Source of the DNA: Tannerellaceae bacterium
GTDB lineage: Bacteria; Bacteroidota; Bacteroidia; Bacteroidales; Tannerellaceae
NCBI GenBank assembly: GCA_031280645.1
Contig: JAITGL010000052.1
Location: 1-51,325 of the forward strand
DNA: 51,325 bases
Direction of reading: 5' to 3'
The notes beneath the pieces were generated by a model. That model searched no databases and was not told where the DNA came from. It saw only the letters and a list, made by a program, of their open reading frames with translations. How positions within the stretch are numbered: position 1 is the first letter of the stretch; each line of letters starts with the position of its first letter. Below, piece by piece: positions 12,006-48,452 of the stretch. The translations under genes were made by a program, and so were the position numbers.

Positions 12006-12522
12006 CAAGTTGGTTAAAACCGATTCGCACATATCCCCGCAAAATCCTTTTAACCTTAAAACGGGTTCCGCAAGTCCACAGCCGAATATTTTGAACGTTA
12101 AAAAAACATCCATGAGCTCCGAACAGAGTCTTTTTAACGTTCAAATAAACCCGTCGAGGCCTCAAGCAAGTGGTTTGAACGTTCAAACGGGCTCAATGAA
12201 GCCTCCAATTTACATTTTTAACATTAAAATGGGTTCCAGAAGGCCCCAACAAGGCTGTTTTAACCTTCAAACGGGTTCAACCAGGGTTCAACGAGGCCGT
12301 TTGAACCTTCAAATTGGGTAAAAAAGGGTCCGAAAAGGTCATTTGAACCTTCAAACGGGTTGCGCGAGACTTCGTCGAGGTTGTTTGAACCTTCAAAATA
12401 CCCCGTAGAGACCTCAAGCAGCCATTTTAATGTTAAAAATGTATACTCCGAATCTTACCAAGACCGTTTTAACCTTCAAATCGCCCCCGCGATACCTTGC
12501 CAAAATCATTTTAACCTTCAAA
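12006..12522 (+). repeat. Array A1: 42-bp phased palindromic repeat array
   Basis: Twelve clear 14-bp near-palindromic cores begin at 12048, 12090, 12132, 12174, 12216, 12258, 12300, 12342, 12384, 12425, 12467 and 12509. All steps are 42 bp except one of 41. A thirteenth, decayed core is in phase at 12006 (right half GGTTAAAA intact). Core variants are TTTTAACCTTCAAA, TTTGAACGTTCAAA, TTTGAACCTTCAAA and TTTTAACATTAAAA. The 28-bp spacers differ strongly. Forty-two bp is four helical turns, so the cores face one side of the helix. Because 42 is divisible by 3 the array reads as an open frame with 14-residue units (FNLQTGS-like), but stops and the 41-bp step break it; I regard it as non-coding. 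It matches array A2 core by core when one is reversed. Confidence 0.92.
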
Positions 12523-17757: not shown

Positions 17758-18164
17758 GGCAGCTTTAAAAGCCGTTTTCCCAGCTGCAAAAACTGTTTTG
17801 GTAGCTACCAAAATCGCTGCGGTAGCTACCGGAACTTTTGCCGTAGCTACCAAAATCGCTGCGGTAGCTACCGGAACTTTTGCCGTAGCTACCAAAATCG
17901 TTGCGGTAGCTACCGGAGCTTTTGCGGTAGCTACCAAAATCGTTGCGGTAGCTACCGGAACTTTTGCCGTAGCTACCAAAATCGTTGCGGTAGCTACCGG
18001 GGCTTTTGCCGTAGCTACCAAAATCGTTGCGGTAGCTACCGGAACTTTTGCCGTAGCTACCAAAACTGTTTTTGCAGCTACCGGAATCGTTGCGGTAGGT
18101 ATGCAATTAATGCCTTTAGCTAAGTAATCGGAAGGTTTACAGCAAGATATGGATTTTGGAGCTG
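17758..18164 (-). repeat. Array B1: leader plus 21-bp phased GTAGCTACC array
   Basis: Thirteen intact cores (GGTAGCTACC or CGTAGCTACC) start at 17800 and recur every 21 bp to 18052 without exception. Decayed units continue in phase at both ends (17758, 17779, 18073, 18094). The 11-bp spacers alternate between AAAATCGTTGC-like and GGAACTTTTGC-like, giving a 42-bp superperiod. Strand is given by the leader, 18115-18164 on the minus strand, which matches that of array B2 at 41 of 50 positions and stands 53 bp from the first intact core in both. Each core contains the palindrome GTAGCTAC. Twenty-one bp is two helical turns. The array is open in several frames on both strands, encoding 7-residue VATxxxx repeats, but lacks a credible gene start. 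Confidence 0.93.
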
Positions 18165-31190: not shown

Positions 31191-31666
31191 TTTGAAGGTT
31201 AAAACAGCCCCTGCGCGCCCTGCGCTTTACATTTTTAACATTAAAACGGGGCGCCATGGGTCTCCCCCAGGTTTTTTGAACGTTCAAACAGGTTGAATGA
31301 AGCCTCCGGCAACCCGTTTGAACGTTCAAACGGCCTCTCGCAACCCTTTTTCGACCTGTTTGAAGGTTCAAACGGGCTTTTACAGGGCTCATCGAGGCCG
31401 TTTGAAGGTTAAAACCGGCTTTCGGAGGGCTCTTGGGAGCCGTTTTAATGTTAAAAATGTAAATTGAGAGGCTCGTTGAGCCCGTTTGAACGTTCAAACA
31501 GGTTGAACGAGGTCTCATTGAGGTTTTTTGAACGTTCAAAAGATCCGGTTGAGAGTTTGCCGGCGTTTTTTGAACGTTCAAAATATCCGTCTGGAAGCTG
31601 TACGGATCGTTTTGAAGGTTAAAACCGCTTTGCGCAGGTACGGGCGAACCGGTTTGAAGGTTAAAA
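31191..31666 (-). repeat. Array A2: 42-bp phased palindromic repeat array
   Basis: Twelve 14-bp cores start at 31191, 31233, 31275, 31317, 31359, 31401, 31443, 31485, 31527, 31569, 31611 and 31653, every step exactly 42 bp. Read on the minus strand, their variants follow the same order as array A1: of eleven aligned positions six are identical and five differ by one base. Both special AT-type cores, one in each orientation and five units apart, coincide. The 28-bp spacers share little with those of A1. The minus strand is open through the array as 14-residue units (FNLQTGS, LNVQKTS), a by-product of the period. Beyond 31666 only a decayed unit (near 31695) is seen. Confidence 0.92.
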
Positions 31667-32077
31667 CCGGCTCGCGGGGGTCGGTCGGGCCGCAGCGATT
31701 TGCAGCGGCGCAAAAAAATACGCTTCGCGGCCTGGCCGGAGCGTTTATCTGAAGTGAAATAAGGCGGATTGGAGAGGGAATAATTAACGTTTATCCCGCA
31801 TAGTGGATATGTTGAGGGGGGGTAGCGCCCAAGCGTCCCGCCGGGATGGGGGAGAGGGCTGATTTATCGCGGTATTGTTGCTTTAAGGATAACATCTTAT
31901 TCGTTTAAATATTTATCGGATGCAAATATAAGGGAATATTTGCGAGTGCAAGTTTTTTGTGCACAACATTGCGTTTTTTTTGAGCGAGGATACAGTTAAT
32001 GCAGGTAATCAAGCCGCGGCTTATTTTACGCCGACAGTTATCATCTATTGTAACAAGGCGGTTTTTAGCCCCCGCTT
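31667..32077. other. Intergenic stretch between array A2 and the MalY-type gene
   Basis: No gene is seen. It contains a minus-strand -7 box (31923-31930), an inverted repeat GCAAATAT/AATATTTGC around it (31922-31943), a run of seven G (TGAGGGGGGGTA near 31813) that recurs near 43828, and GC-rich sequence from 31667 to 31860. Confidence 0.6.
31923..31930 (-). promoter_or_regulatory. Possible -7 element reading toward array A2 and the BspA-like gene
   Basis: TATATTTG on the minus strand fits TAnnTTTG, with CTTG (complement of 31949-31952) 18 bp upstream. No gene lies between it and array A2, so a transcript from here would carry the array in its leader. Confidence 0.4.
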
Positions 32078-32107
32078 TTTGCGTTTAAAATAAAAGGCAT
32101 ACCTTTG
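32078..32107 (+). promoter_or_regulatory. Promoter of the MalY-type gene
   Basis: TTTG at 32078-32081, 18 bp, then TACCTTTG at 32100-32107. The start codon is 28 bp downstream at 32136. Confidence 0.7.
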
Positions 32108-32135
32108 ACGCTATTCAATGAAAAAATTATAAAGA

Positions 32136-33323
32136 ATGAAGATGGAACACACCCAATATAATTTTGACGAACCAACCGACAGGCGCGGTACCGACTCGCT
32201 TAAGGTCGACTTAATGGAGGCTCGCTTCGGAAAGGCGGGCCTCATACCGTTATGGGTGGCCGATATGGAGTTCCGCTCCCCTCCGTTTATTGTAGAAGCG
32301 CTTCGCCGGCGCTGCGACCATTCGATATTCGGTTACACTTTTGCTTCCGACGCCTATTACGAAAGCATAACAGGGTGGCTTGAGCGCCGCTACTCGCTCA
32401 GGGTAGATAAAGAATGGTTAAGTTATATTCCCGGCATTGTAAAAGGCATAGCTTTCGTTATAGATTGCTTTACCCGGCCGGGCGACAAGGTGATAATACA
32501 GCCTCCGGTATATACTCCGTTCCGCAGTATACCCGAAATGCAAGGCCGGGTTATTGTCGAGAACCCGCTTCGCCTCGACAACGGCCGGTATGAGATGGAT
32601 TTCAACCATCTTGAAAGCATTATCGACAGCGCCTGCAAAGTATTTATCCTTTGCAGCCCCCACAATCCGGGCGGCATGGTGTGGAGCCGCTCAACCTTGT
32701 CGAAACTGGCCGAAATATGCTCCCGCCGCGGCGTGCTTATAATATCCGACGAGATACACGCCGAAATGGCATGGCCGGGCGCCTCGCACACGCCCTTCCT
32801 CTGCGCGTCGGCCGAGGCGGCCTCCTGCTCGATAACCTTCATGTCGCCCAGCAAGACGTTTAACATTGCGGGGATAGTAAGCTCGTACGCCATTGCGCCC
32901 GACGACGCCCTCCGCTCGCGCTTCTTTTCATGGCTCAAGGCCCGCGAGCTCGACCAGGGCAACTTATTTGCCTACGAAGCCACCAAGGCGGCCTACGCCG
33001 AAGGCGAAGACTGGCTGCGCCAGATGTGCGATTATGTTACAGGCAACGTAAACTACATCGACAAGTATTGCAGGGAGGAGATTAAGCCGATAAAGGTATA
33101 CATGCCCCAGGCATCCTTCCTGGTATGGCTTGATTGCCGCGGCCTCGGCCTCGGCCAGAAAGACCTTGTAAGCCTCTTCCGCGACCGCGCAGGCCTTGCG
33201 CTTAACGACGGCGCCATGTTCGGAACCGGCGGCGAAGGCTTTATGCGCCTCAATGCAGGATGCCGGCGCCAAATAATAGCGCAGGCCATGGAGCAATTGA
33301 AAGAAGCGGTTAAAGGGCTTTGA
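32136..33323 (+). CDS. MalY/PatB-family PLP aminotransferase (cystathionine beta-lyase type)
   Basis: A 395-residue fold-type I PLP enzyme of aminotransferase class I/II. MalY/PatB features are the N-terminal PLWVADMEFRSPP (about 38-50), IQPPVYTPF, CSPHNPGGMVWS and SDEIHAE (204-210), with the Schiff-base lysine K240 in MSPSKTFNIAG. Such enzymes cleave cystathionine or cysteine to pyruvate, ammonia and a thiol; some instead act as regulators. The exact substrate is not readable. An in-frame ATG at 32142 is an alternative start. The SlyD-like gene follows after 58 bp. Confidence 0.9.
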   Translation: MKMEHTQYNFDEPTDRRGTDSLKVDLMEARFGKAGLIPLWVADMEFRSPPFIVEALRRRCDHSIFGYTFASDAYYESITGWLERRYSLRVDKEWLSYIPGIVKGIAFVIDCFTRPGDKVIIQPPVYTPFRSIPEMQGRVIVENPLRLDNGRYEMDFNHLESIIDSACKVFILCSPHNPGGMVWSRSTLSKLAEICSRRGVLIISDEIHAEMAWPGASHTPFLCASAEAASCSITFMSPSKTFNIAGIVSSYAIAPDDALRSRFFSWLKARELDQGNLFAYEATKAAYAEGEDWLRQMCDYVTGNVNYIDKYCREEIKPIKVYMPQASFLVWLDCRGLGLGQKDLVSLFRDRAGLALNDGAMFGTGGEGFMRLNAGCRRQIIAQAMEQLKEAVKGL

Positions 33324-33381
33324 AAATAAAGGCAAGCACATATCCATCCATATAAATATTAATTCATAAAACTCGAACTTA

Positions 33382-33930
33382 ATGAGAATTACAGCAAATA
33401 AATTCGTATCGGTCATATACGACCTTCACGTAGGCGAGGGCCTGGAGCGCGAGCTTATGGAAAGAGCTACGCGCGAAGCCCCCATGAGCTTCATTTCGGG
33501 GAGCGACATGCTAATTCCGGCATTTGAAGAGAAGCTTGAAGGGCTGAAAGTGGGCGATAAGTTTAAATTCACGCTCATCCCCGCCCAGGCATACGGCGAA
33601 TATAATGAAGAGCATTTCATGGAAATCCCCAAATCGGCCTTCGAGGTAGGCGGACAGTTCCGCGCCGACGTTGTACAGGAGGGCAAGATCGTTCCCATGT
33701 ACGACGATAAAGGCAGCAGGCTAAACGGCTCTGTAATGGAAGTGAGAGAAAACACCGTAATGGTAGACTTCAACCACCCCCTCGCCGGCGAAACCCTCCA
33801 CTTCAACGGCGAAGTAATCGACGTGCATATCCCCACCCAGACAGAGATCGACGAGCTTGCAGCCGAGGGCAGCGAATTTGGCGACAGCTGCGGCGACGGC
33901 TGCGGAGGAGGCTGCGACTGTTGTAACTAA
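33382..33930 (+). CDS. SlyD-like FKBP-type peptidyl-prolyl isomerase
   Basis: A 182-residue cytoplasmic FKBP with a SlyD-type inserted chaperone flap. The start YDLHVGEGLERELMERA (17 residues) and LIPAQAYGEYNEEHFMEIPK, with VMVDFNHPLAGETLHFNGEV, are typical. The C-terminus, about residues 168-182, is rich in cysteine and glycine (CGDGCGGGCDCCN), a metal-binding tail comparable in position to the His/Cys tail of E. coli SlyD, which binds nickel. aroC starts 3 bp after its stop. Confidence 0.9.
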   Translation: MRITANKFVSVIYDLHVGEGLERELMERATREAPMSFISGSDMLIPAFEEKLEGLKVGDKFKFTLIPAQAYGEYNEEHFMEIPKSAFEVGGQFRADVVQEGKIVPMYDDKGSRLNGSVMEVRENTVMVDFNHPLAGETLHFNGEVIDVHIPTQTEIDELAAEGSEFGDSCGDGCGGGCDCCN

Positions 33931-33933
33931 GCG

Positions 33934-35004
33934 ATGCAAAACACTTTTGGCAACATATTTCGGCTCACAACCTTCGGCGAGTCTCACGGCCCCGCCATCG
34001 GAGGCGTTATCGACGGATGCCCGCCCGGCATAGCCGTCGACTACGACTTCATACGGCGCGAGCTCGACCGCCGCAAGCCCGGCCAATCGGCAATAACCAC
34101 CTCCCGTAAAGAAAGCGACGCGGTTACGTTCCTTTCAGGCATATACGAAGACCAAACCACAGGCGCCCCGATAGGCTTTACCATTGCCAACGAAAACACG
34201 CGTCCGCAAGATTACGACGACATCCAAAGCGCCTATCGCCCGTCGCACTCCGATTACACCTATCAGATGAAATACGGCATCCGCGACCCTCGCGGAGGAG
34301 GCCGGTCGTCGGCCCGCGAAACGGCGGCCCGCTGCGTAGGCGGCAGCATTGCAAAGCTGGGCCTTAAAGCCCGCGACATACACGTATGCGCATACACCTC
34401 CCAAATAGGCCATATCCGCCTTGAAGGATCATGGTTCGACCACGAGCTTTGCTTGACCGACGAAAACTCCGTACGCTGCCCCGACGCCGACACAGCCGCC
34501 GAGATGGAAGCCCTGATCCGCAAAGTAAAATCGAAAGGCGACAGCATAGGAGGCATAGTAAGCTGCGTAATCTACGGCGTTCCGCCCGGCATCGGCGAAC
34601 CGATATACGGCAAGCTCCACGCCGCATTGGCCCACGCCATGCTATCAATCAACGCCGCCAAAGGCTTTGAGTACGGCGACGGATTTGACGCCGCCCTCTA
34701 CAAAGGCTCGGAGCACAACGATGCGTTTTACTCAAGCAACGGTCATATCGGCACAAGCACAAATTATTCGGGAGGAATCCAAGGCGGAATATCAAACGGC
34801 GGGGAGATATATTTCCGCGTAGCCTTTAAAGCCGCCCCCACCATATTAATGGATCAGCAAACGGTGGATATTGACGGCAATAGCAAAATATTGAAAGCAA
34901 AAGGGCGGCACGACGCCTGCGTGGTTCCGCGGGCGACGCCGGTTGTGGAAGCTATGGCGGCGATGACTGTTTTTGATTATTTGCTGCTTCAGCGGATGCG
35001 GTAG
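33934..35004 (+). CDS. aroC: Chorismate synthase
   Basis: Converts 5-enolpyruvylshikimate 3-phosphate to chorismate, the last step of the shikimate pathway, using reduced FMN. 356 residues with the signatures [20 protein letters not shown] near the N-terminus, [15 protein letters not shown], and [27 protein letters not shown] occurs in the C-terminal part, as in the family. Length is normal. It is close behind the SlyD-like gene (3 bp), so the two share a transcript. Confidence 0.96.
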
Positions 35005-35019
35005 TTTATCGCAAATATA

Positions 35020-35027
35020 TATCTTTG
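35020..35027 (+). promoter_or_regulatory. -7 element for parA-parB
   Basis: TATCTTTG fits TAnnTTTG just after the aroC stop, about 134 bp before parA. No TTTG stands at -33. Confidence 0.4.
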
Positions 35028-35160
35028 CAAATATCAGCTACCAAAATATACCTGTAACATAGGATAGATACCGCTGGCGGCACAAAGATGCAAAGAGAGA
35101 GATTAAGGACAATCGGAATATGTGTAGCTTTATACGAAACAATAATATTAAAATTATTTT

Positions 35161-35925
35161 ATGGGAAAGATTATCGCAATAGCAAACCAGAAAGGCGGAG
35201 TTGGTAAGACCACCACCGCAATCAATTTAGCTGCATCGTTAGCTGTTCTTGAAAAGAAAGTATTAGTTGTGGATGCCGACCCCCAGGCCAACGCCTCGTC
35301 GGGACTAAGCGTTGACATCCGCAATGTTAAACGCTCCATATACGAATGTTTGATTAACAGCGACGACGCCCTTGGCGCCATCGTCTCGACCGAAGTAGAA
35401 CGCCTTGACATCATCCCGTCGCATATCGACCTGGTAGGCGCCGAAATAGAGATGCTTAACATGGAGAACCGGGAGCAATTACTGAAACAAATACTTACGC
35501 CGCTCAAAGCCCGCTACGACTTCATACTGATTGACTGCTCGCCGTCGCTCGGCCTTATCACCGTCAACGCCCTTACGGCCGCCGACTCGGTGATGATACC
35601 GGTGCAATGCGAGTACTTTGCCCTTGAAGGGATAAGCAAGCTTTTAAACACGATAAAGATTATAAAGGCCAAGCTCAACCCGAAGCTTGAGATTGAAGGC
35701 TTCCTTCTCACGATGTACGATTCGCGGCTGCGTTTGGCAAATCAGATATATGAAGAGGTGAAGCGGCCGTTTCAAGATTTGGTTTTTACCACCGTTATTC
35801 AGCGAAACATAAAACTTAGCGAAGCATCGAGTTACGGCAAGCCGGTACTACTTTACGACGCCGAGTCGAAAGGCTCGTTCAATCACATCCAGCTTGCACA
35901 AGAGCTAATAGATAAAAACAAGTAA
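35161..35925 (+). CDS. parA: Chromosome-partitioning ATPase ParA (Soj)
   Basis: A 254-residue Walker-type ATPase that, with ParB and parS, segregates the chromosome origin. The deviant Walker A motif KGGVGKTTTAINLA is at about residues 10-23, followed by VVDADPQANASSGL, and the Walker B region DFILIDCSPSLGLITVNAL. Length is that of the short chromosomal Soj type, without an N-terminal DNA-binding domain. parB begins 2 bp after its stop. Confidence 0.95.
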   Translation: MGKIIAIANQKGGVGKTTTAINLAASLAVLEKKVLVVDADPQANASSGLSVDIRNVKRSIYECLINSDDALGAIVSTEVERLDIIPSHIDLVGAEIEMLNMENREQLLKQILTPLKARYDFILIDCSPSLGLITVNALTAADSVMIPVQCEYFALEGISKLLNTIKIIKAKLNPKLEIEGFLLTMYDSRLRLANQIYEEVKRPFQDLVFTTVIQRNIKLSEASSYGKPVLLYDAESKGSFNHIQLAQELIDKNK

Positions 35926-35927
35926 AT

Positions 35928-36836
35928 ATGGCAATAGGGAAAAAACCCCCTTTGGGACGAGGGCTAAGCGCATTAATTGAGATAGAGGAGCCTCAAACGA
36001 AAGGATCTTCTACAATTCATGAAATAGAGCTTGTCAAAATTCAGCCCAACCCGGACCAGCCCCGTTCTATCTTTGACGAAGAAACTCTGGAGGAACTCGC
36101 AGTTTCTATTCGCCATGTCGGCATCATCCAGCCTATCACTTTAAAGGAAGCAGGCCCCGATCAATATGTTATCATCTCAGGAGAACGACGCTATCGCGCC
36201 TCGCTTAAAGTTGGGCTTACACGTATACCGGCATACATTAAAACAGCAGCCGATGAAGATATAATGGAGGAAATGGCGCTGATTGAAAACATCCAAAGAG
36301 AGGATCTCAACGCCATTGAAATTGCTTTAGCCTACAAAAAACTCATGGACAGCTACGAGCTGACCCAAGAGAAACTGAGCGAACGAGTAGGCAAGAAACG
36401 CACAACCATTGCCAACTATCTCCGCCTGTTAAAGCTTCCCGCCGAGATACAAATGGGGCTTAAGAACAAAAAAATCGACATGGGTCACGCCCGCGCTCTC
36501 ATCCCGATTCCCGACCCCGAAGTTCAACTTGCCTTATACGAACAGATACTTAACGATTCGCTCTCGGTAAGAACAGTAGAAGACATGGTCCGCGCCGTAG
36601 TATCCGGCGACGATATTCAAAAAAATGAAGCGGTGCAGGAAACCGCTAAAAAAGCGCATGCGCCCAAACTTCCGGAAGAATACAAGATGCTTAAAGATCA
36701 TCTTTCGCGAGTATTCAGCGCCAAAGTTCAATTAACTTACAGCGCAGACGGCAAAGGGAAAATCAGCATTCCCTTCTCTTCGGAAGATGACCTGGAGCGC
36801 GTGATAGGACTTTTCGACAAGTTGATGAATAAATAA
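35928..36836 (+). CDS. parB: Chromosome-partitioning protein ParB (Spo0J)
   Basis: A 302-residue CTP-dependent clamp that loads at parS. Order: short basic N-terminus with LGRGLSALI, the CTPase block IQPNPDQPRSIFDEETLEEL and VISGERRYRASLKVGL with GERRYRA, then the helix-turn-helix region LSERVGKKRTTIANYLRLLK and a C-terminal dimerisation domain. It is in one tight operon with parA upstream and a DUF5683 gene 6 bp downstream. I looked for parS (TGTTTCACGTGAAACA-like) around this operon and saw none. Confidence 0.95.
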   Translation: MAIGKKPPLGRGLSALIEIEEPQTKGSSTIHEIELVKIQPNPDQPRSIFDEETLEELAVSIRHVGIIQPITLKEAGPDQYVIISGERRYRASLKVGLTRIPAYIKTAADEDIMEEMALIENIQREDLNAIEIALAYKKLMDSYELTQEKLSERVGKKRTTIANYLRLLKLPAEIQMGLKNKKIDMGHARALIPIPDPEVQLALYEQILNDSLSVRTVEDMVRAVVSGDDIQKNEAVQETAKKAHAPKLPEEYKMLKDHLSRVFSAKVQLTYSADGKGKISIPFSSEDDLERVIGLFDKLMNK

Positions 36837-36842
36837 TGCAGA

Positions 36843-37574
36843 ATGCAGCCCATAAATAAAACATGCAGTACGATACTTCTAATTTCCGGTCTATTATGCC
36901 ATTCAATCGCAGGACGTTCTCAGGAAATTATACAGGATACTACCGCATTGGTTGTGGGCGGTTCGGAATTTAATTCTACGCTTGTCAATACAGATTCGGC
37001 ATTAGTGCGGATAGGAGAACCGGGGGAAAAAACGTTTAAATCTAATTCCACAAAAGCCGTCTTATTGTCATTCGTTCCCGGTTTGGGACAAATCTACAAC
37101 CGGAAGTATTGGAAGTTGCCCATTGTCTACGGCGGATATATGGGCTTTTTATATGCCGTTACCTGGAATAACAAGAATTACCAGGATTATTGGGGAGCCT
37201 ATCGAAGCATAATACACGATTCGGAAGAATACAATCGGCTATTGAAAGAATCCGGAGGCGCCGACGTGGACTATACGTTCAACAAAGGATGGACTGATTT
37301 TGTTTCGACGACCGACTATAAAACAGCCGTCAGCAATACGTCGTATCACAATTTATTTAAAAGCAGAAAAGATTTTTTCCGTAGAAACAGAGATTTATCC
37401 ATAATCCTCACTGTCGGCTGGTTTGCCCTGTGCATGGTGGATGCTTATGTGGATGCCGAGCTATTTGATTTTGATATTTCACCCTCCCTGTCGATGCGTG
37501 TTGAACCCATGGTTATACCTGCAACACAAGGCGGCTCAAGGAGTGTAGGAGTAAATTGCAGTATAACATTCTAA
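36843..37574 (+). CDS. DUF5683 domain membrane protein
   Basis: A 243-residue protein with an N-terminal signal or anchor (ILLISGLLCHSIAGRSQ). The conserved core is SFVPGLGQIYNRKYWKLPIVYG (given as SFVPGLGQIYNRKYWKLPI), a membrane segment, and RRNRDLSIILTVGWFALCMVDAYVDAEL (blocks RRNRDLSIILTVGWFALC and VDAYVDAELFDFDIS). This is the Bacteroidetes DUF5683 family, found regularly after parAB. Function is unknown; location between parB and mltD suggests a cell-envelope role. Confidence 0.85.
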   Translation: MQPINKTCSTILLISGLLCHSIAGRSQEIIQDTTALVVGGSEFNSTLVNTDSALVRIGEPGEKTFKSNSTKAVLLSFVPGLGQIYNRKYWKLPIVYGGYMGFLYAVTWNNKNYQDYWGAYRSIIHDSEEYNRLLKESGGADVDYTFNKGWTDFVSTTDYKTAVSNTSYHNLFKSRKDFFRRNRDLSIILTVGWFALCMVDAYVDAELFDFDISPSLSMRVEPMVIPATQGGSRSVGVNCSITF

Positions 37575-37586
37575 CTATATTTTCGC

Positions 37587-39146
37587 ATGATAACACGTTA
37601 TTTTCTTTTCATAATTACACTTTGTTTGTCGTTCCCTTTTTATGCCCAGGACAACATATCCGAAAAAGAATTGTATGAGATTTCAAAAAGAGATTCTTTC
37701 CCTGATGAAATAGGGTTAATTCCCGAAAGCTTAGACGCGGATGTAGACAGCTTGCTTCACACATGGCATGCGCAATACTTTACCAAATCGGAAAATCACT
37801 GTCATGATGATGATGCTAATGTTTATTTCAGCGAAGAAGTTATACGCGACCGTTTAAACAGGCTACCCCATATCATCCCGATGAGCTATAACAATCTGGT
37901 ACGGAAAAGTATTGATTTTTATATGAACAAGAGACGTAATTTAATTCGGTATATGCTAGGTATGGCCGATTACTATTTTCCGCTCATCGAACCCGTACTT
38001 GAAGAACACGGATTACCGCTTGAGTTTAAATACTTAGCCGTAGTTGAAAGCGCCCTCAATCCAGTAGCCGTTTCAAGAGTAGGAGCATGCGGCCTATGGC
38101 AATTCATGCTGCCCACTGGTAAAAGCTACGGATTGGATATCAACAGTCTGATCGACGAACGTCGTGATCCTATCAGATCCACTCATGCAGCAAGCTCTTA
38201 CTTTAAAGACATGTACAACCTCTTTAACGGCGATTGGAATCTTGTTATAGCCTCCTACAACTGCGGCCCAGGCAATGTAAGCAAAGCCATTAGACGAGCC
38301 GGCGGTGAAACCGATTTCTGGAAGATTTATCCATATTTGCCGAGAGAGACTCGCTCTTATGTTCCTCTATTCATTGCAGCTTGCTATGTTATGAATTACT
38401 ACTGCGAACATAATCTTTGCCCTATGCAAACCGCCCTGCCTTTGGCTACTGATACCGTAATGCTGGCTAAGGCTGTGTCGTTTCAAACAATTGCAGGGTT
38501 GATTGATATTGATGTTGATTTGCTCAGAACCCTTAATCCTCAATACAGACGCGACATTGTTCCGGGCAATATAAAACCCCTCCCGTTAAAGCTTCCGGCA
38601 TCATATGCTTATGCTTTTATAGATAAAACCGACGACATCTATAATTCCTCCATTGATGAACTTCTACTCGCCACAGCTCCGAAGCAACAACAAATTATTC
38701 ATACCGTACAGAAAGGAGAAAACATAGTAACCATTGCCGACAAATACGGCATTACCGCAAGAGATATCAGAAGATTAAACGGGCTAAGTTCAAACAAAGT
38801 GGCCGCAGGAAAGCAACTCCGACTTAAAGTAAATAACGGCGGAATAGCCTTTGCTTCAACTAAAACAACCACTGCCGCCCCATCCTCTGCAAGCACAACG
38901 AAGCAGCAAACCTCAATAGCCGCATCCTCGAAAACTCAAGGAGCTCCTATAACCACTCCGAAATTGCCCACAACCAATGAGACCATGGGAGGAACCGCTA
39001 TAACAACATACATAGTAAAATCCGGAGACTCCCTATATTCCATCTCCAGAAATGCCGGGACTACCGTTGCTATTTTACAGAAGGCAAACAACCTAACGGG
39101 AACAAACATTCGTCCGGGTCAGAAATTAATCATACCTAAAGGATAA
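37587..39146 (+). CDS. MltD-like lytic transglycosylase with two LysM domains
   Basis: A 519-residue exported enzyme that cleaves peptidoglycan glycan strands. Signal peptide: MITRYFLFIITLCLSFPFYA. The SLT domain (about 135-290) contains the catalytic glutamate in KYLAVVESALNPVAVSRVGA, then CGLWQFMLPTGKSYGL and IASYNCGPGNVSKAI. Two LysM domains follow: about 373-418 (HTVQKGENIVTIADKYGI) and about 471-519 (YIVKSGDSLYSISRNAGTT), joined by a Thr/Ser-rich linker. It lies 12 bp after the DUF5683 gene and 6 bp before the rel gene. Confidence 0.92.
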   Translation: MITRYFLFIITLCLSFPFYAQDNISEKELYEISKRDSFPDEIGLIPESLDADVDSLLHTWHAQYFTKSENHCHDDDANVYFSEEVIRDRLNRLPHIIPMSYNNLVRKSIDFYMNKRRNLIRYMLGMADYYFPLIEPVLEEHGLPLEFKYLAVVESALNPVAVSRVGACGLWQFMLPTGKSYGLDINSLIDERRDPIRSTHAASSYFKDMYNLFNGDWNLVIASYNCGPGNVSKAIRRAGGETDFWKIYPYLPRETRSYVPLFIAACYVMNYYCEHNLCPMQTALPLATDTVMLAKAVSFQTIAGLIDIDVDLLRTLNPQYRRDIVPGNIKPLPLKLPASYAYAFIDKTDDIYNSSIDELLLATAPKQQQIIHTVQKGENIVTIADKYGITARDIRRLNGLSSNKVAAGKQLRLKVNNGGIAFASTKTTTAAPSSASTTKQQTSIAASSKTQGAPITTPKLPTTNETMGGTAITTYIVKSGDSLYSISRNAGTTVAILQKANNLTGTNIRPGQKLIIPKG

Positions 39147-39152
39147 ACCGCC

Positions 39153-41384
39153 ATGGACGAAATACAGGTAACAAGAACTCCGGAAGAAGAAGAAAGGATG
39201 ATTAAAGAAGAATTTGACAGCCTTCTAAATGAATACAAGAACTCTAATCATCGCGGCAAAACCGAAATAATTACAACTGCTTTTAATTTCGCCAAAGAAG
39301 CCCACGCGGGAGTAAAAAGGCAAAACGGCGATCCTTACATAATGCACCCCTTGGCTGTTGCCCGTATCGCATGCCACGAAATGGGTTTAGGATCTACCTC
39401 AATTTGCGCTGCCTTGCTGCACGATGTAGTTGAAGATACCGACTATGGTGAAGAAGACATTCGCAACATGTTCGGCGACAAAATTGCACAGATTGTTATG
39501 GGGTTAACCAAAATAATTCCAAACGTGGGAAACGCCTCCCCCCAAGCTGAAAATTTCAGAAAACTACTCCTTACAGGTAGCGAGGACATACGAGTTTTAC
39601 TGATAAAAATTGCCGATCGCTTGCATAATATGCGCACTTTAGAGCATATGAGGCCCGACCAGCAATTCAGAAATACAGGAGAAACTCTCGCAAATTATGT
39701 TCCCTTGGCTCACAGACTTGGTTTTTTTGAAATCAAAAGCCAGCTTGAGGATCTTTGTTTCAAATATGAACAACCTGAGGCCTATAAGACAATCCAGGAA
39801 CAACTGGCAGCTAAGGAAACTTCCCATATACAGTTGTTTGAAGCGTTTGCTGCACCGATAAGAGAAGAACTCGACAAGCTGGCAGGAGTAGAATTCCAGT
39901 CGTATACAATGGTACTCCGTATAAAATCAGCCTATTCCATCTGGAAAAAAATGCAAACTAAAAAAATTGGTTTCAATGATGTTTACGACAAATACGCCGG
40001 CCGTATAGTTTTTGATCCGTGGCCTAATATATCGGCAACGGATGAAAAGCATTTATGCTGGAAAATATATACTACTGTAACCGACCAACATAGACTTAAT
40101 CCAGACAGAATCCGCGACTGGGTAAGCAATCCGAAATCCAATGGCTACCAATCATTGCATGTAACCGTTATGATGGAAGGCCCAGGCAAATGGTTTGAAG
40201 TACAAATCAGAAGCAAGCGTATGCATGAAATTGCAGAAAAAGGCGTGGCTGCTCATTGGAGGTACAAAGCATCCGATGTTAAAGAAAATAAGGAGATTGA
40301 GAAAGGGATACTAGCCATTGCAAATATACTTGAAAAGTCCGGCTCTGATCCCAACGCATTAGATTTACTCGATACGATTAAACTCAACCTTGCCGAACCC
40401 GACATCTTGGTTTTTACTCCAAAGGGCGATATCATAAATCTCCCACAAGGAGCAACCGTTCTCGACTTTGCCTACAGCCTTCATTCCAATATCGGCAATA
40501 AGTGCATAGGCGCTAAAGTGAACAAAGCGCTGGCGCCGCTTAGCTATAAATTAGCAAGCGCAGATCAGGTAGATATCCTGACATCACAATCACAGGAAGC
40601 CCAAGAGGAATGGTTCAATTATGCAATTACCTTAAACGCTAAGACTAAAATCCAAGCAAGTATTGAACGCAGATGGAAAGAAGATGCCAGAATAGGCGAA
40701 GAAATGGTGCTGAAAGCATTTCAAAAAGCTAACCTTGAAACTGACTCCTCTAAAATCGACAAATTAGCCAACTATTGTAATTACCGGCAACGCAAAGATT
40801 TTTACCATGCACTTGGAACAGGAAAAACAACTCTTCCTGAGAAAATAAAGAAAATCGTAAAAAGCAAACGCTCTAAAACAAATCCATCCGATTCTTCCTT
40901 GCCGAATCAACCTAAGAAAATCGACAAATCAAAAATATTCATCCTGAAAGAAGATGATCTTAATACAGGTTATAAACCCGCAACTTGCTGCAAACCTATC
41001 CCCGGCGATGATGCTTTTGGATTTATTGATGATGACGGGAAAACCGTTATTGTGCACAAACACGCTTGTCTCTGTTCGCCGCGGCTGAAAAGCAACTCAG
41101 CCAACCGTGTCCTCGCAATTAAATGGAAAAACCACAAAGTTGCTTTATTTGAAGTAACAATAACGCTAAAAGGAATTGATTCATCAGGCGTTTTGCACGA
41201 AATGACTAAAATAATATCCGACGAGTTTAACGTGAATATCCAAGAACTGTTCGTTAAAGCGGAAGACGGAGTATTCAACGGTAGAATAAAACTCAAGGTA
41301 CATGATACAAACGATATCAACAAGCTCGTAAAGAGGCTATCCAAAATAAACAATATAAAAGCGGTATCCCGCACCGACGACTAA
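39153..41384 (+). CDS. Bifunctional (p)ppGpp synthetase/hydrolase RelA/SpoT
   Basis: A 743-residue Rel protein governing the stringent response. Domains in order: HD hydrolase with HPLAVARIACHE and LLHDVVEDTDYGE (intact HD and ED, so hydrolysis is likely retained), the synthetase domain with RIKSAYSIWKKM, KYAGRIVFDPW and GYQSLHVTVMM, a TGS domain (ILVFTPKGDIINLPQGATVL), a helical region, a zinc-finger-like stretch (CCKPIPGDDAFGF), and a C-terminal ACT domain (KGIDSSGVLHEMTKIIS). Length matches full-length Rel. It is in the par-mltD operon. Confidence 0.95.
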   Translation: MDEIQVTRTPEEEERMIKEEFDSLLNEYKNSNHRGKTEIITTAFNFAKEAHAGVKRQNGDPYIMHPLAVARIACHEMGLGSTSICAALLHDVVEDTDYGEEDIRNMFGDKIAQIVMGLTKIIPNVGNASPQAENFRKLLLTGSEDIRVLLIKIADRLHNMRTLEHMRPDQQFRNTGETLANYVPLAHRLGFFEIKSQLEDLCFKYEQPEAYKTIQEQLAAKETSHIQLFEAFAAPIREELDKLAGVEFQSYTMVLRIKSAYSIWKKMQTKKIGFNDVYDKYAGRIVFDPWPNISATDEKHLCWKIYTTVTDQHRLNPDRIRDWVSNPKSNGYQSLHVTVMMEGPGKWFEVQIRSKRMHEIAEKGVAAHWRYKASDVKENKEIEKGILAIANILEKSGSDPNALDLLDTIKLNLAEPDILVFTPKGDIINLPQGATVLDFAYSLHSNIGNKCIGAKVNKALAPLSYKLASADQVDILTSQSQEAQEEWFNYAITLNAKTKIQASIERRWKEDARIGEEMVLKAFQKANLETDSSKIDKLANYCNYRQRKDFYHALGTGKTTLPEKIKKIVKSKRSKTNPSDSSLPNQPKKIDKSKIFILKEDDLNTGYKPATCCKPIPGDDAFGFIDDDGKTVIVHKHACLCSPRLKSNSANRVLAIKWKNHKVALFEVTITLKGIDSSGVLHEMTKIISDEFNVNIQELFVKAEDGVFNGRIKLKVHDTNDINKLVKRLSKINNIKAVSRTDD

Positions 41385-41393
41385 TACCTCCGG

Positions 41394-42410
41394 ATGAGAA
41401 TAGGCTCAATTGATTTCGGCAGCCACCCCGTTTTCCTCGCCCCCATGGAAGACGTTACCGACATCTCTTTTCGCCTTATGTGCAAGCGCCTTGGCGCAGA
41501 TATGGTTTATACCGAATTCATCTCGTCTGACGCGCTTATACGGCATGTAAGCAAGACAAAACTAAAGCTGGAAATTGCCGACGACGAACGCCCCGTAGCA
41601 ATTCAGATATACGGCAGAGACGTTGCCGCCATGAAAGAAGCCGCACAAATATGCGAAGAAGCCAAGCCCGACATTATCGACCTTAATTTCGGATGTCCCG
41701 TAAAAAAAATAGCCGGCAAAGGCGCCGGATCAGGCCTTCTACGAAACATTCCCCTCATGCTCGAAATAACAAGAGCAGTTGCCGATGCGGTCAAAACGCC
41801 TGTAACGGTCAAAACCCGTCTGGGTTGGGATACTGAGAACCAAATAATAGTTGATCTGGCCGAAATGCTGCAAGACTGCGGCATCGCCGCCCTTTGCATC
41901 CACGGACGCACGCGCAGCCAAATGTACGCCGGAAACGCCGACTGGACGCTTATCCGAAAGGTCAAAGAAAATCCTCGCATGAAAATTCCCATCATAGGCA
42001 ACGGCGATATCGTTTCAGCCGAAATATGTATGGAACGATTCGAATCATGCGGCGTCGACGCTGTAATGATCGGCCGAGGAAGCATTGGCAGACCATGGAT
42101 ATTCCGCGAAGTCAAACACGCGCTTACAACCGGCCAACAACTACCAAAAGAGCCGTTTTCATGGTATCTAAATCTCTTAAAAGAACAAGTTATACAAAGC
42201 GTTGAGAAATTAGACGAGCGGCGTGGAATCCTGCACAGCCGCCGGCATATTGCAGCAACTCCGCTGTTTAAAAACATTCCCAACTTTCGCCAAACCCGTA
42301 TCGACATGCTGCGCGCAGATACCGTTGCCGGATTATTCGCAATAATGGACAAGGTTGCTCCGGAGTACTTCACAAATGATACCGATACTGAAAAGCCGGA
42401 GCTACCGTAG
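41394..42410 (+). CDS. dusB: tRNA-dihydrouridine synthase, DusB type
   Basis: An FMN-dependent enzyme that reduces uridine to dihydrouridine in the D loop of tRNAs. 338 residues: the start PVFLAPMEDVTDISFRLMCK, FNFGCPVKKIAGKGAGSGLL with the catalytic Cys in NFGCP, KTRLGWD, CIHGRTRSQMYAG, and DAVMIGRGSIGRPWIF. These are the standard Dus signatures, and the overall form is nearest DusB. It starts 9 bp after rel and ends before a short CMD-family gene. Confidence 0.94.
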   Translation: MRIGSIDFGSHPVFLAPMEDVTDISFRLMCKRLGADMVYTEFISSDALIRHVSKTKLKLEIADDERPVAIQIYGRDVAAMKEAAQICEEAKPDIIDLNFGCPVKKIAGKGAGSGLLRNIPLMLEITRAVADAVKTPVTVKTRLGWDTENQIIVDLAEMLQDCGIAALCIHGRTRSQMYAGNADWTLIRKVKENPRMKIPIIGNGDIVSAEICMERFESCGVDAVMIGRGSIGRPWIFREVKHALTTGQQLPKEPFSWYLNLLKEQVIQSVEKLDERRGILHSRRHIAATPLFKNIPNFRQTRIDMLRADTVAGLFAIMDKVAPEYFTNDTDTEKPELP

Positions 42411-42439
42411 AACATGAATACAAAAAAGAATCTTACTAT

Positions 42440-42796
42440 ATGGAAAATCCAGACAGGGAAAAGATCGAGCAGATAATCAAACTGCGAAAGCAAGCCCACA
42501 GTTTTTACCTGCAAAAATCAAAGGTCTATCAAGCTTTTGTGAATATGGAAGCAGCCGCTTTTAAAGACAGTGCATTAAGCAAATTGCAGAAAGAATTAAT
42601 CGCTATCGGCATTTCAATCGTAATAAATTGCGAATCCTGCATGGAATGGCACGTCAAGCAGGCGCTCGACAGTGGAGCAACGGAAGCTGAAATTATCGAA
42701 GCCATCGAAGTAGGTATCGAAATGGGAGGCGGCCCGGCCACAGTTTCCGCCCGCTTTGCAATGAATGTGCTTGCCTGTTATCAAGCGGCAAAATGA
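42440..42796 (+). CDS. AhpD-like carboxymuconolactone decarboxylase family protein
   Basis: A 118-residue alpha-helical protein. The AhpD-type active site is INCESCMEWHVKQALDSGAT, with the CxxC pair and a following His, and EAIEVGIEMGGGPA completes the family block. Members with CxxC act as alkylhydroperoxidase-like thiol reductases. This one is probably a peroxide- or thiol-handling enzyme, though the substrate is not determined. It starts 29 bp after the dusB stop and probably ends that operon. Confidence 0.9.
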   Translation: MENPDREKIEQIIKLRKQAHSFYLQKSKVYQAFVNMEAAAFKDSALSKLQKELIAIGISIVINCESCMEWHVKQALDSGATEAEIIEAIEVGIEMGGGPATVSARFAMNVLACYQAAK

Positions 42797-43059
42797 CCCG
42801 GAAAGCCGAAGATAAATACAAACCGGATGTACGGATGCCCTTCGCTATATTGACGGGCAACGTGATTCCCGAATCGGATAATCGGCATACTGAGGCGTGC
42901 GTCCTCAATATACGCCATAAATTTCGTTTAAACCCGACGAACTGATCTCTCCAAAAATCAACATCTTTCATGATTTGATTGCCCACATTATCGGTAATGC
43001 GCACCCCGGCATTGTATGATATGTATGTCTTTCGCATTCCTTTACCCAAGCAAATTCCA

Positions 43060-43361
43060 CAGCCCCAAAGCCCATATCTTGCTGTAAAACTGCCGTTTAT
43101 TTAGATAGATACAAAACCGTTGCCGTGAAAAACGTCGTTTTGGCAACTACGAAAACTGTTTTGGTAGCTACCGGAACGTTTTTCGTAGCTACCGGAACAG
43201 TTGCCGTAGCTACCGGAACGTTTTTCGTAGCTACCAAAACAGTTGCCGTAGCTACCGGAACGTTTTTCGTAGCTACCAAAACAGTTGCCGTAGCTACCAG
43301 AACATTTTTCGTAGCTACCAAAACAGTTGCCGTAGCTACCAAAACAGTTTTCGTAGCTACC
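43060..43361 (+). repeat. Array B2: leader plus 21-bp phased GTAGCTACC array
   Basis: Ten intact cores (GGTAGCTACC or CGTAGCTACC) start at 43163, 43184, 43205, 43226, 43247, 43268, 43289, 43310, 43331 and 43352, each step exactly 21 bp. Decayed units stay in phase at 43142 and 43373. Spacers alternate between GGAACGTTTTT-like and AAAACAGTTGC-like. The leader 43060-43109 (with CCATATCTTGCTGTAAA) matches that of B1 at 41 of 50 positions and ends 53 bp before the first intact core, as in B1. The orientation is opposite to B1. Flanking similarity may continue some 20 bp further upstream with a small gap. Confidence 0.93.
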
Positions 43362-43420
43362 AAAAACGTTTTCTCAACTACTTAAATCGCATGTATTTTA
43401 GACCGGATAATTGGGCCGGG

Positions 43421-43642
43421 TTACAACATTAGATTCTTCAGGTTGTTCTTCCAAAATCGGAAGTGGAAGCCGAGGTGCATCATTAAGATCTTAAAAGCTA
43501 ATCTCACAATAATCTTGCAACCGGCGTTTGTACGCAACAATATAATTGCCAAAGTAAACGGTTCAAGTAAAAACAATGCAATCGAACAAAGAATTATAAG
43601 TTTTGTAACTGAAACAGGAACAGTTTTTATCGACACTTTCAT
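43421..43642 (-). CDS. Possible small membrane protein (73 aa)
   Basis: An ATG at 43642 gives 73 residues with one hydrophobic stretch (TKLIILCSIALFLLEPFTLA) and a basic tail ending FRFWKNNLKNLML. A minus-strand -7 box (TATCTTTG, complement of 43935-43942) lies about 290 bp upstream. There is no recognised family and no operon partner. The stretch from 42797 to 44053 otherwise holds only array B2 and short inverted repeats, for example CTGCCG/CGGCAG at 43853-43870. Treat as uncertain. Confidence 0.3.
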   Translation of the reverse strand: MKVSIKTVPVSVTKLIILCSIALFLLEPFTLAIILLRTNAGCKIIVRLAFKILMMHLGFHFRFWKNNLKNLML

Positions 43643-43988
43643 GATAAGTTGATTTTTTTTATTATTAGCAGGAAACAGTTTAACGCCTAATTTTATGAGT
43701 GATTCGGACTTGCCAAGGGTTTGGAAAGATAAAAAAATAGCCCTTCCCGTTTTTTTGGAAGAGCATGACATCAAGTTTAAGAAAAGAAGGAGAGGTTTGA
43801 TCTATACAATCAACCCGTAATTTACATGAGGGGGGGTAATTTGTAAAGGTTCCCTGCCGTTAATCCGGCAGTGAGTTGAGAGGGATAATATATTTGATAC
43901 GTATGCGTTCATTCACTCTATTATTTCACTTGGGCAAAGATATGTAATATATCAGGAATTGAAAAAATCTAATTGAATTGTGCTGAAA

Positions 43989-44019
43989 TTTGATTTGCTC
44001 CCAAAAGGTATTACTTTTG
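43989..44019 (+). promoter_or_regulatory. Consensus promoter of sufC-sufD
   Basis: TTTG at 43989-43992, exactly 19 bp, then TACTTTTG at 44012-44019. The sufC start is 34 bp downstream, so sufC is the first gene of its transcript. Confidence 0.8.
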
Positions 44020-44053
44020 CCTCTATAACAATGCACAACTACTTAATTAATTT

Positions 44054-44806
44054 ATGTTGAATATAAAAAACCTGCACGTTTCCATCAACGGAAAAAAAAT
44101 ACTTAAAGGAGTTGATCTTTCCGTAAGCAAAGGAAAAGTTCACGCAGTTATGGGCCCAAACGGATCGGGCAAAAGTACTCTAAGCAACGTATTAGTCGGG
44201 CATCCGGGATACGAAGTAACAAAAGGAAGCATCGTTTTCAACGGTAAAAACCTCATGGATCTTTCACCTGAAGATCGCAGCCGGGAAGGCTTGTTCCTTA
44301 GTTTTCAATATCCGGTTGAAATACCCGGAGTAAGCATGGTAAGCTTTATGAGAGCCGCCATAAATGAACATCGCAAATACAGAGGACTGGAGCCCATATC
44401 GGCAACCGGATTCCTCAAGCTCATGCGCGAAAAGCAAGCTTTCGTTGAATTGGACAGTAAGTTAACCGGACGGAGCGTTAACGAAGGATTTTCCGGCGGT
44501 GAAAAGAAGCGTAACGAAATATTCCAGATGGCAATGCTTGAGCCATCTCTCGCCATTCTCGATGAAACCGATAGCGGACTCGACATTGACGCTCTGCGCA
44601 TTGTTGCCGCAGGTGTTAACAAATTACGAACCGCTGATAACTCAATGATCGTTATCACACACTACCAGCGGCTACTCCACTATCTAAAGCCCGACGTAGT
44701 ACACGTTTTGTATAATGGAAGGATAATAAAAACGGCAGGCCCCGAACTTGCTCTTGAACTTGAGGCCAAAGGCTACGACTGGATTAAGGAAGAAACAGGA
44801 GAATAG
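44054..44806 (+). CDS. sufC: Fe-S cluster assembly ATPase SufC
   Basis: The ABC-type ATPase of the SufBCD iron-sulfur scaffold, cytoplasmic. 250 residues with Walker A GPNGSGKSTLSNVL, the Suf-specific LFLSFQYPVEIPGVSM, the signature FSGGEKKRNEIFQM and Walker B LAILDETDSGLDIDAL. The gene directly follows a consensus promoter. sufD follows 8 bp later. The usual upstream neighbour sufB is not in the window. Confidence 0.96.
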   Translation: MLNIKNLHVSINGKKILKGVDLSVSKGKVHAVMGPNGSGKSTLSNVLVGHPGYEVTKGSIVFNGKNLMDLSPEDRSREGLFLSFQYPVEIPGVSMVSFMRAAINEHRKYRGLEPISATGFLKLMREKQAFVELDSKLTGRSVNEGFSGGEKKRNEIFQMAMLEPSLAILDETDSGLDIDALRIVAAGVNKLRTADNSMIVITHYQRLLHYLKPDVVHVLYNGRIIKTAGPELALELEAKGYDWIKEETGE

Positions 44807-44814
44807 AGCAAAGC

Positions 44815-46155: not shown

Positions 46156-46164
46156 GATTCCTGC

Positions 46165-47391
46165 ATGAATTATTACGTACATACTTTCCAAAACGGTCTC
46201 CGCGCCATTCATCTGCCGTTAGATTCGCCCGTATCTTACTGCGGATTCGGAATAAAAGCCGGAGCGCGTAATGAAAATGCAGATGAGTTTGGCTTAGCGC
46301 ACTTTGTTGAGCATATGCTTTTTAAAGGAACTCAGAAAAGAAAAGCCTGGCATATTCTTAATCGAATGGAAAACGTAGGGGGCGAGCTTAACGCTTTTAC
46401 ATCAAAGGAAGAAACCTTCGTTTATTCCGTATTCCCGGCAGAATATTTCCAGCGCGCACTAGAGTTACTTATCGACATTGTTTTCAATTCAAAGTTTCCT
46501 CAAAATGAAATAGAGAAAGAAACAGAGGTCATCCTCGACGAAATTAATTCATACAAGGATAGCCCATCCGAACTTATTTTTGATGAATTTGAAAACATCC
46601 TCTTCCGCAATCACGCCCTCGGTCATAACATACTCGGCGATGAAAGCTCGCTTACACGCTTCAATACCGAATTAGCCGCATCTTTCACCCGCTGCTGGTA
46701 TCTTCCGGGCAATATGATTTTCTTCTCAATGGGGAATATACCATTTAGCCGCATAATACGAATGTTAGACAATGTTCCTGACAGAACGGACGTGTCGGCG
46801 CCGCTTTTCCAAAAGCTTCCACCGGAAAGATTCGCCGGAGGATACGAGCGAATTAATCGCAATACCCATCAAGCTCATGTAATAATCGGCGGACGTTCGT
46901 ACGGCATGTTTGAGAGCAGCCAAAAACGCGCGCCTCTCCTCCTGTTAAACAATCTGCTTGGCGGGCCGGGAATGAACAGCCGTCTAAACCTTAGCCTAAG
47001 AGAAAAAAACGGCTTGGCATATACCGTAGAATCCAGCGTCGCAACTTATACCGACACCGGCATGGCTTCAATCTATTTCGGCACACACGCAAAATCCGTT
47101 GAACGAGCCGTTGGTTTAGTCAGGAAAGAATTGGAAGTATTACGTTCCGGCAAATTAACGGCCCTGCAATTATCTGCCATAAAAAAACAGTTTACAGGAC
47201 AAATGCTCGTTGGAATGGAAAATCGAGAAAGCCTTTTCCTCCATGCAGGCAAACATTTCCTCCATCACAACCGATATTACACCCTTGCCGAAAGGATCAG
47301 CGGTATAGAAAAAGTAACCGGAGAAGAAATCCTTGCCGCAGCAAACGAGATTTTCTCCCCCGGTGATCTTTTTACGCTGGTGTACGAATAA
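46165..47391 (+). CDS. M16 family zinc metallopeptidase
   Basis: A 408-residue pitrilysin-type peptidase. The inverted zinc motif is HFVEH (H46, E49, H50), in EFGLAHFVEHMLFKGTQKRK, and ILDEINSYKDSPSE supplies the distal glutamate region. ENVGGELNAFTSKEETFVY is typical of the processing-peptidase subgroup. The C-terminal half (LNNLLGGPGMNSRLNLSLRE) is the inactive partner domain. No signal peptide is visible. It starts 9 bp after sufD and appears co-transcribed, where sufS would often stand. The substrate is unknown. Confidence 0.93.
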   Translation: MNYYVHTFQNGLRAIHLPLDSPVSYCGFGIKAGARNENADEFGLAHFVEHMLFKGTQKRKAWHILNRMENVGGELNAFTSKEETFVYSVFPAEYFQRALELLIDIVFNSKFPQNEIEKETEVILDEINSYKDSPSELIFDEFENILFRNHALGHNILGDESSLTRFNTELAASFTRCWYLPGNMIFFSMGNIPFSRIIRMLDNVPDRTDVSAPLFQKLPPERFAGGYERINRNTHQAHVIIGGRSYGMFESSQKRAPLLLLNNLLGGPGMNSRLNLSLREKNGLAYTVESSVATYTDTGMASIYFGTHAKSVERAVGLVRKELEVLRSGKLTALQLSAIKKQFTGQMLVGMENRESLFLHAGKHFLHHNRYYTLAERISGIEKVTGEEILAAANEIFSPGDLFTLVYE

Positions 47392-48240: not shown

Positions 48241-48279
48241 AATCTGTGAATAAAAAATTAGTATTTCGTTGACTTTGCG

Positions 48280-48358: not shown

Positions 48359-48452
48359 GAGACCTCGGATTTCCAGCCGGAATTTCCTTGAAGCCTTCGG
48401 AGACCTCGGATTCCTTGCCGGGATTTCCGGGAGACTTTCCGAGACCTCGGAT
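48359..48452 (+). repeat. Repeat C: 41-bp imperfect tandem repeat
   Basis: GAGACCTCGGAT recurs at 48359, 48400 and 48441, both steps 41 bp. The first two units also share a second block, GCCGGAATTTCC versus GCCGGGATTTCC. About 2.3 units are recognisable, and a decayed one may precede (CAGATTTTCC at 48343). It lies between the divergent TIM-barrel gene and murF, just upstream of the murF -7 box. Confidence 0.7.

Follow-up and report, generated by a model that had tools for sequence, protein, structure and literature searches.

Ordered ladders of palindromes in intergenic DNA of a Tannerellaceae bacterium suggest either a scaffold that binds DNA or duplication in two-turn steps

Introduction

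Among described repeats, the REP and BIME elements are nearest in habit to the arrays reported here. According to one account (PMC2817692), they are extragenic, dispersed palindromic units, some of which form regularly spaced clusters, and BIME-1 binds IHF, whereas BIME-2 binds gyrase; a second account describes a GTAG motif in REPs (PMC3733652). PARCELs are tandem coding repeats of 75 nt with dyad symmetry (PMC2996958). The ladders described below share with REP and BIME elements the extragenic location, the dispersal, the palindromic units, and the regular spacing of clusters. In contrast to them, however, the ladders keep a strict step of 21 or 42 bp, their palindromes have no loop, and their core sequence differs by genome.

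Two of these ladders, A1 and A2, lie in the 51,325-bp stretch of Tannerellaceae DNA that was analysed (contig JAITGL010000052.1, hereafter the window). Like PARCELs, A1 and A2 are tandem repeats with dyad symmetry, but PARCELs are coding and A1 and A2 lack a codon phase.

Arrays at about two helical turns are also formed by plasmid iterons and by some centromere-like sites, and plasmid iterons and phased operators of the Lrp or MetJ type present dimer sites at integral turns, which are bound cooperatively. Such iterons and operators serve one or few promoters or origins, whereas the ladders here are many, dispersed, and intergenic. For Porphyromonas gingivalis, which belongs to a related family, the genome literature reportedly records direct repeats about 22 and 41 bp long. 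These possibly fall into the same period classes, and we know of no explanation for them; if they are identical in kind, part of what follows is already known as sequence. A description of such ladders was not found in the open-licence literature, a body that leaves most subscription journals outside. The ladders suggest either a DNA-binding scaffold or a process of two-turn duplication.

Results and Discussion

Two palindrome arrays in the window

The coordinates of the arrays are collected in Table 1. The pattern TTTKAANNTTMAAA matches the window 25 times, compared to 0.09 matches expected from shuffling, and 24 of these matches are within A1 or A2; the remaining one, at 50623, is outside both. 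Exact copies of the rare cores TTTTAACATTAAAA and TTTTAATGTTAAAA number only four in the window (12216, 12425, 31233, and 31443). A1 is neighboured by a Wzi-like gene and a methylmalonyl-CoA mutase gene. A2 has a gene for a BspA-like leucine-rich protein on one side and an aminotransferase gene on the other, and these two are transcribed divergently. By eye, the outer flanks of A1 and A2 have no likeness to each other. At half the period, A1 has a weak second dyad, and A2 has none. The A2 region had zero matches in a plasmid collection, and the A pattern had none in viral contigs.

Table 1. Coordinates of the arrays, their rare cores, and further ladders (window positions unless a locus of another genome is named).
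Feature	Position	Strand	Description
A1	12048..12522	+	12 palindromic 14-bp cores; steps 10 x 42 bp and 1 x 41 bp (12384 to 12425)
A2	31191..31666	-	12 palindromic 14-bp cores; all steps 42 bp; minus strand corresponds to A1 sense
A1 rare core TTTTAACATTAAAA	12216..12229		exact match
A1 rare core TTTTAATGTTAAAA	12425..12438		209 bp from A1 TTTTAACATTAAAA
A2 rare core TTTTAACATTAAAA	31233..31246		TTTACAT directly before
A2 rare core TTTTAATGTTAAAA	31443..31456		ATGTAAA directly after; inverted copy of TTTTAACATTAAAA, 210 bp away
B1	17760..18098		second ladder family: GTAGCTAC palindromes each 21 bp, 42-bp higher repeat
B2	43147..43373		further copy of the GTAGCTAC 21/42-bp ladder
C	48359..48452		third ladder, short; 41-bp spacing of three imperfect TCNGAGACCTCGGA dyads
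CATCGATG element of G275/G136	L137 9040-9430, L138 8640-9010, L139 4560-4930, L141 4110-4300

Two known classes of repeat were considered and do not fit. The differences between A1 and A2 in eight paired units (95 in all) are distributed over the codon phases as 31/28/36, which makes the arrays unlike coding sequence, and a PARCEL or other coding palindromic repeat would be expected to show a codon constraint that is absent from this distribution. CRISPR arrays have repeats of 24-48 bp and unique spacers of even length, whereas the core here is 14 bp and, in register, each A1 spacer has its homologue in A2.

A1 and A2 descend from one ordered array

A preliminary description of this DNA had claimed a core-by-core match between A2 (minus strand) and A1 (plus strand), and this was reproduced with all 24 cores where they had been placed. 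At a shift of one unit, six of the eleven core pairs are identical and five have a single mismatch (0.45 mismatches per core), compared to 1.00 mismatch per core over eight pairs in the runner-up alignment (shift -4). The two rare cores also occur once per array, five units apart and at matching places, as had been reported. When the order of the cores was shuffled, the calculation proposed in that description, 24 of 20000 orders were as good as the observed one with either orientation and any tested shift permitted; with the rare cores excluded and the register fixed, 178 of 20000 shuffles matched the observed agreement.

Because the rare cores are inverted copies of one another, the pair cannot by itself fix the orientation of the arrays, but the spacers do. 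In the shift-1 register 160 of 280 spacer positions are identical, whereas over 20000 shuffled orders the mean was 112.6 and the highest value 151, such that none was as high. Spacer identity at the remaining shifts from -4 to 4 is 0.35-0.44, and in reverse orientation it is at most 0.44. The spacer register is a test independent of the cores, and therefore the shared ancestry first proposed from the cores is supported: A1 and A2 are descendants of one ordered array, today in opposite orientation. Since their divergence, the cores have come to differ at 5 of 154 positions (97% identity) and the equal-length spacers at 107 of 252 (identity down to 57%). This position-wise conservation of the cores can reflect slow descent, rather than a separate function for each position.

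Family A arrays in a related genome

Further copies of family A were sought by scanning 84,980 species, at one genome each, for a pair of neighbouring cores whose centre is C or G. Two stretches were identified, one in a Flavobacterium MAG and one in G001, the draft genome of Tannerellaceae bacterium Pc512_bin25. With a looser core centre, only one of the 123 genomes of the family was positive, again G001. By one protein, methylmalonyl-CoA mutase (96%), G001 is also the closest of these 123 genomes to the window, and its aminotransferase is 79% identical. The Flavobacterium locus (MAG17, L001 7700-8000) is a homogeneous 42-bp repeat that contains TTTTAACCTTAAAA and a clear second dyad, ACTCAACAAGATGAGT, at half the period.

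All 47 matches to TTYKAACGTTMRAA in G001 are in ten chains of 4 to 15 units, and the reversed control has a single match; no match to TTYKAACGTTMRAA was found in G007, G123, G006, or G077. No A core that could serve as an ordinary operator was found in G001 outside the chains. Its cores mix the half-sites TTTGAAC and TTCTAAC. Each of the ten loci is a single unbroken chain rather than two out-of-phase pieces, although the chain finder accepted steps of 40-44 bp only, such that larger steps could appear only as split arrays. In 12 arrays with end units trimmed (those of L051, L054, and L055 being degenerate), 104 of the 120 steps are 42 bp, 13 are 41 bp, two are 43 bp, and one is 40 bp.

Nine of the ten chains were compared further, the 4-unit chain L158 being excluded from the tests of self-complementarity, register, and deviant cores. 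The best spacer registers among these nine arrays have identities of 0.48-0.94, but the runner-up is usually near the best (for instance, 0.57 versus 0.56 for L027 and L157, and a tie at 0.52 for L159 and L160), and thus a common order is clear from the spacers for L157 and L162 only (0.94 versus 0.62). Between A1 or A2 and the nine G001 arrays, spacer identity is 0.41-0.47, which is not above the runner-up register of A1 and A2 themselves (0.46), and no spacer order is therefore demonstrated across the two species. The placement of deviant cores, a class defined after the arrays had been seen and including degenerate array ends, was also compared. In eleven arrays, 13 and 11 pairs of deviant cores are at lags 4 and 5, compared to 6.0 and 5.2 expected; of 5000 shuffles, 3 and 4, respectively, gave as many. 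In G001 alone, with L162 left out as a near copy of L157, the sum for the two lags is reached by 0 of 10000 shuffles. Layout, unlike spacer sequence, thus looks alike in the window species and G001.

In four older pairs of G001 arrays, core divergence is 17-21% versus 39-44% for the spacers. In the recent pair L157 and L162, the two are comparable (6 of 140 core and 13 of 251 spacer positions differ), and thus no selection on the cores is visible at short range. Relative to a single consensus that we chose as reference, the orientation of the spacers flips near the middle in nine of nine G001 arrays, with single exceptions within L027, L051, L157, and L162; A1 and A2 have no clear pattern.

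Ladders at syntenic sites

Positions 32071-51325 of the window are syntenic with a contig of G001 (C78). At the A2 site, G001 has a different ladder of about 41 bp, composed of ATTTACATGTGTAAAT with GCGATAATTATCG between, and at the C site (window 48359) it has an A-family array of 12 units. At the B2 site, inspection by eye showed longer hairpins in a cluster, with no ladder, in G001. A further site lies between window positions 21971 and 22098, in a second syntenic stretch; there Tandem Repeats Finder (TRF) detected no array in the window but an array of 8.3 units with a 42-bp period in G001. Ladders are therefore found in both genomes, with differing sequences, at two of the four testable sites; at the A1 and B1 sites, the neighbours differ in G001. 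The B2-syntenic locus (L188 8930-9240) has long hairpins, ACCGAAGCT..AGCTTCGGT and TATTAAC..GTTAATA, and is BIME-like in appearance.

A period rule across unrelated arrays

In 589,702 bp of G001, TRF, which does not require palindromes, identified 116 arrays that are 60 bp or longer and equal 4.1% of the sequence; these and the following counts exclude loci fetched for A arrays, arrays <60 bp, and periods <12. The periods of 114 of the 116 are in the bins 20-23, 39-44, 80-86, 120-127, and 160-168; the bins, which also included 60-65, were set after the data had been seen and take up about one fifth of the range between periods 12 and 200. The arrays belong to 52 sequence families, and in 50 of these every period is in the bins, which are near multiples of 20.5-21. 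The same bins hold 39 of 49 arrays in G007, 16 of 18 in G275, and five of five in the window. Control genomes of the family (400 kb) have arrays at lower density, 14 in total, of which 12 are in the bins, often at 22 bp. The period rule thus seems to be wider than G001, and abundance seems to be special to certain genomes. Eight other Bacteroidales, in contigs totalling 81 kb, had 0 arrays, a sample too small for exclusion. Since the commonest period in G001 is 41 and the controls often have 22, the ruler departs from an exact 10.5 bp per turn; the periods 21, 22, 41, and 42 approximate two or four turns of the helix but share no single pitch.

The longest perfect stem per G001 unit is 5.72 pairs versus 4.21 after shuffling, and stems of at least 7 pairs are found in 39 of 116 arrays. 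In 25 sequences that had been chosen because they are arrays, the dyad autocorrelation has its top lag at 21 or 42 in 22 cases and at 63 or 84 in the remaining three. Overlap with open reading frames is below 20% for 91 of 116 arrays in G001, 33 of 49 in G007, 16 of 18 in G275, and four of five in the window, and the non-ORF share of G001 is 17% (ORFs mostly inside an array being dropped). The genes beside 64 G001 arrays are co-oriented, divergent, and convergent in 30, 23, and 11 cases versus 94, 44, and 37 for gaps >60 bp; as divergent gaps may be longer, no promoter or terminator role is read from these counts. Some MAG contigs (L065, L075, L076, and L140) start or end within a ladder; because contigs break there, draft genomes give only minimum numbers of ladders.

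Ordered blocks in other ladder families

The palindrome of B1 and B2, GTAGCTAC, is found as a triple in six of the 123 family genomes, with differing spacers, and in 0 of 393 genomes across the order; the loci of G095, G092, G116, G090, G088, and G112 were selected because they hold such arrays. One viral contig that matched GTAGCTAC contains a coding repeat and was dismissed. The second dyad half a period off is clear in the 21-bp families. The reversed control of GTAGCTAC is itself a palindrome, CATCGATG, with 39 matches in G275, two in G482, and one in G136.

Ordered arrays recur among these unrelated sequences. In G275, four arrays have a similar ordered series of spacers; three of them keep both flanks, and the fourth ends at a contig end. 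In G007, the blocks GCACCGGTGC, GAGCTAGCTC, and a third unit are in a consistent order in L075, L081, and L071 (reversed), and L070 lacks the middle block. These blocks have a strict 21-bp step, and the 9-bp spacer stays similar as the palindrome varies between blocks. In G095, L113 and L114 have three block types in identical order. The expectation of the preliminary description that additional copies would keep an inherited order was thus borne out in part: the deviant-core spacing of 4 or 5 units recurs in G001, and ordered blocks recur in G007, G275, and G095 with other sequences, but a spacer register shared with G001 was not found. Among the other families listed, many look homogenised rather than core-conserved.

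The CATCGATG ladders of G275 and G136 (Table 1) are part of an interspersed element with a kept left flank, the ladder, and a right flank ending in the hairpin ACGATAGCTTGCGACTATCGT with T runs. The G136 ladder has three units only. The element may encode a small RNA or be mobile.

A proposed phased ladder and its rivals

A1 and A2 are two copies of one ordered, non-coding, intergenic ladder of palindromes four helical turns apart. We tentatively propose, with a confidence that falls somewhat short of even, that these palindromes are bound by dimers on one face of the DNA. As in phased dimer operators, the sites are dyad-symmetric and are spaced by integral helical turns. In favour of this reading, cores diverge less than spacers both between A1 and A2 and in the four older G001 pairs, and most steps in the trimmed arrays are exactly 42 bp. 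Each palindrome would be bound by a putative dimeric protein, with one TTYKAAC-like half-site per subunit, and the integral spacing would put the dimers on one face and so permit cooperative binding. The predicted product is a straight or bridged nucleoprotein structure, which may act as a nucleoid scaffold or in long-range repression through ladder-ladder bridging. Recombination or copying would carry ladders, as complete ordered blocks, from one intergenic site to another, after which their sequence would be rewritten and their spacing kept. Counting against a ladder of dimer sites are the lack of any A core found outside the G001 chains that could be an ordinary operator, the cores of L157 and L162, which are not favoured over spacers, the many homogenised families, the inexact pitch, and the G007 blocks, in which palindromes change while the 9-bp spacer stays. 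The main rival, and a strong one, is a mutational ruler, in which minisatellites arise from duplication steps of about two turns, are spread by ectopic recombination, and are passively kept; hairpin-aided slippage or recombination, acting between points on one face of the DNA, would set the step. We regard it as possible, although with clearly less than even confidence. It accounts for the period rule, which spans unrelated families in G001 and extends to the control arrays, and it agrees with the recent copies that lack a difference between core and spacer and with the two of four syntenic sites at which the window and G001 have differing arrays. However, it does not account for the conserved cores: the contrast between A1/A2 cores and spacers, the surviving 42-bp step, and the order of the cores are left unexplained. 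The duplication ruler and the dimer ladder may also act together, one creating ladders and the other keeping some of them.

Three further explanations are far less probable. Movement of REP/BIME-like palindromic repeats by a Y1 tyrosine transposase (RAYT) would suit ladders that are extragenic, dispersed, palindromic, and regularly spaced, with a GTAG motif within GTAGCTAC, and three of the six genomes with GTAGCTAC arrays have one Y1_Tnp match each (G090, G092, where it is partial, and G116, where it has an internal stop). We nevertheless consider it very unlikely, because the Y1_Tnp profile (PF01797) was unmatched in five array-bearing draft genomes (G001, G007, G088, G095, and G112) and is present in genomes without a palindrome ladder in 20-40 kb samples. 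Overall, the profile matched 12 of 22 genomes, with four matches each in G275 and G136. The step is also fixed and the cores are loop-less; where a REP or BIME palindrome is 20-40 bp, tagged, and often solitary, the A site is 14 bp and, in G001, arrayed in 47 of 47 cases. An array acting as transcribed RNA, or a coding repeat, is highly improbable. The A2 minus frame is open for 180 codons, and the G275 ladders are inside a repeated element with a terminator-like hairpin, but the differences between A1 and A2 have no codon-phase bias, the A1 frame stops after unit 7, and Rfam matches in the window and ten loci are to tRNA only. Array-level self-complementarity, too, is mostly at chance, and a hairpin at this level is unsupported overall, since the score at the best centre is often equalled by shuffles (of 300, 209 for A1, 48 for A2, 15 for L027, 202 for L051, 243 for L054, 268 for L055, 26 for L157, 62 for L159, 232 for L160, 42 for L161, and 16 for L162). 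The least probable explanation is an integrated partition, origin, or iteron-like site, such as a parS array or plasmid iterons. The period of about two turns is in its favour, but G001 sequence has ten chains, the neighbours in the window are housekeeping genes, the plasmid collection gave no match, and neither a rep or par gene directly beside A1 or A2 nor a restriction to few copies per replicon was seen.

Returning to the phased ladder, a broader version is that intergenic DNA of one Tannerellaceae clade follows a two-turn ruler, with a nucleoid lattice that selects phase over sequence and family-specific proteins that read the dyads. We consider this unlikely on present comparisons. If true, dozens of unrelated ladder families, amounting to about 4% of one genome's sample, would keep their spacing and often their dyads while their letters turn over, some syntenic sites would exchange ladders, and ladders would be dispersed as ordered blocks. 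If bacterial tandem repeats can keep to multiples of about two turns in dozens of unrelated sequences, DNA would be measured genome-wide, whether by a protein lattice or by mutational machinery. Ordered arrays are, in addition, a means to trace the copying of such elements between intergenic sites.

Minor ladders were also seen at other loci. Short tandem repeats of 22 bp, in about 2-4 copies and some of them palindromic, are found among the control loci (L030, L041, L043, L102, L106, L109, and L190, among others). Finally, L062 11580-11960 and L127 14846-15026 have ladders that repeat at 40 and 41 bp, with unrelated palindromes, CGTTTAAACG and AACCAACGCGTTGGTT.
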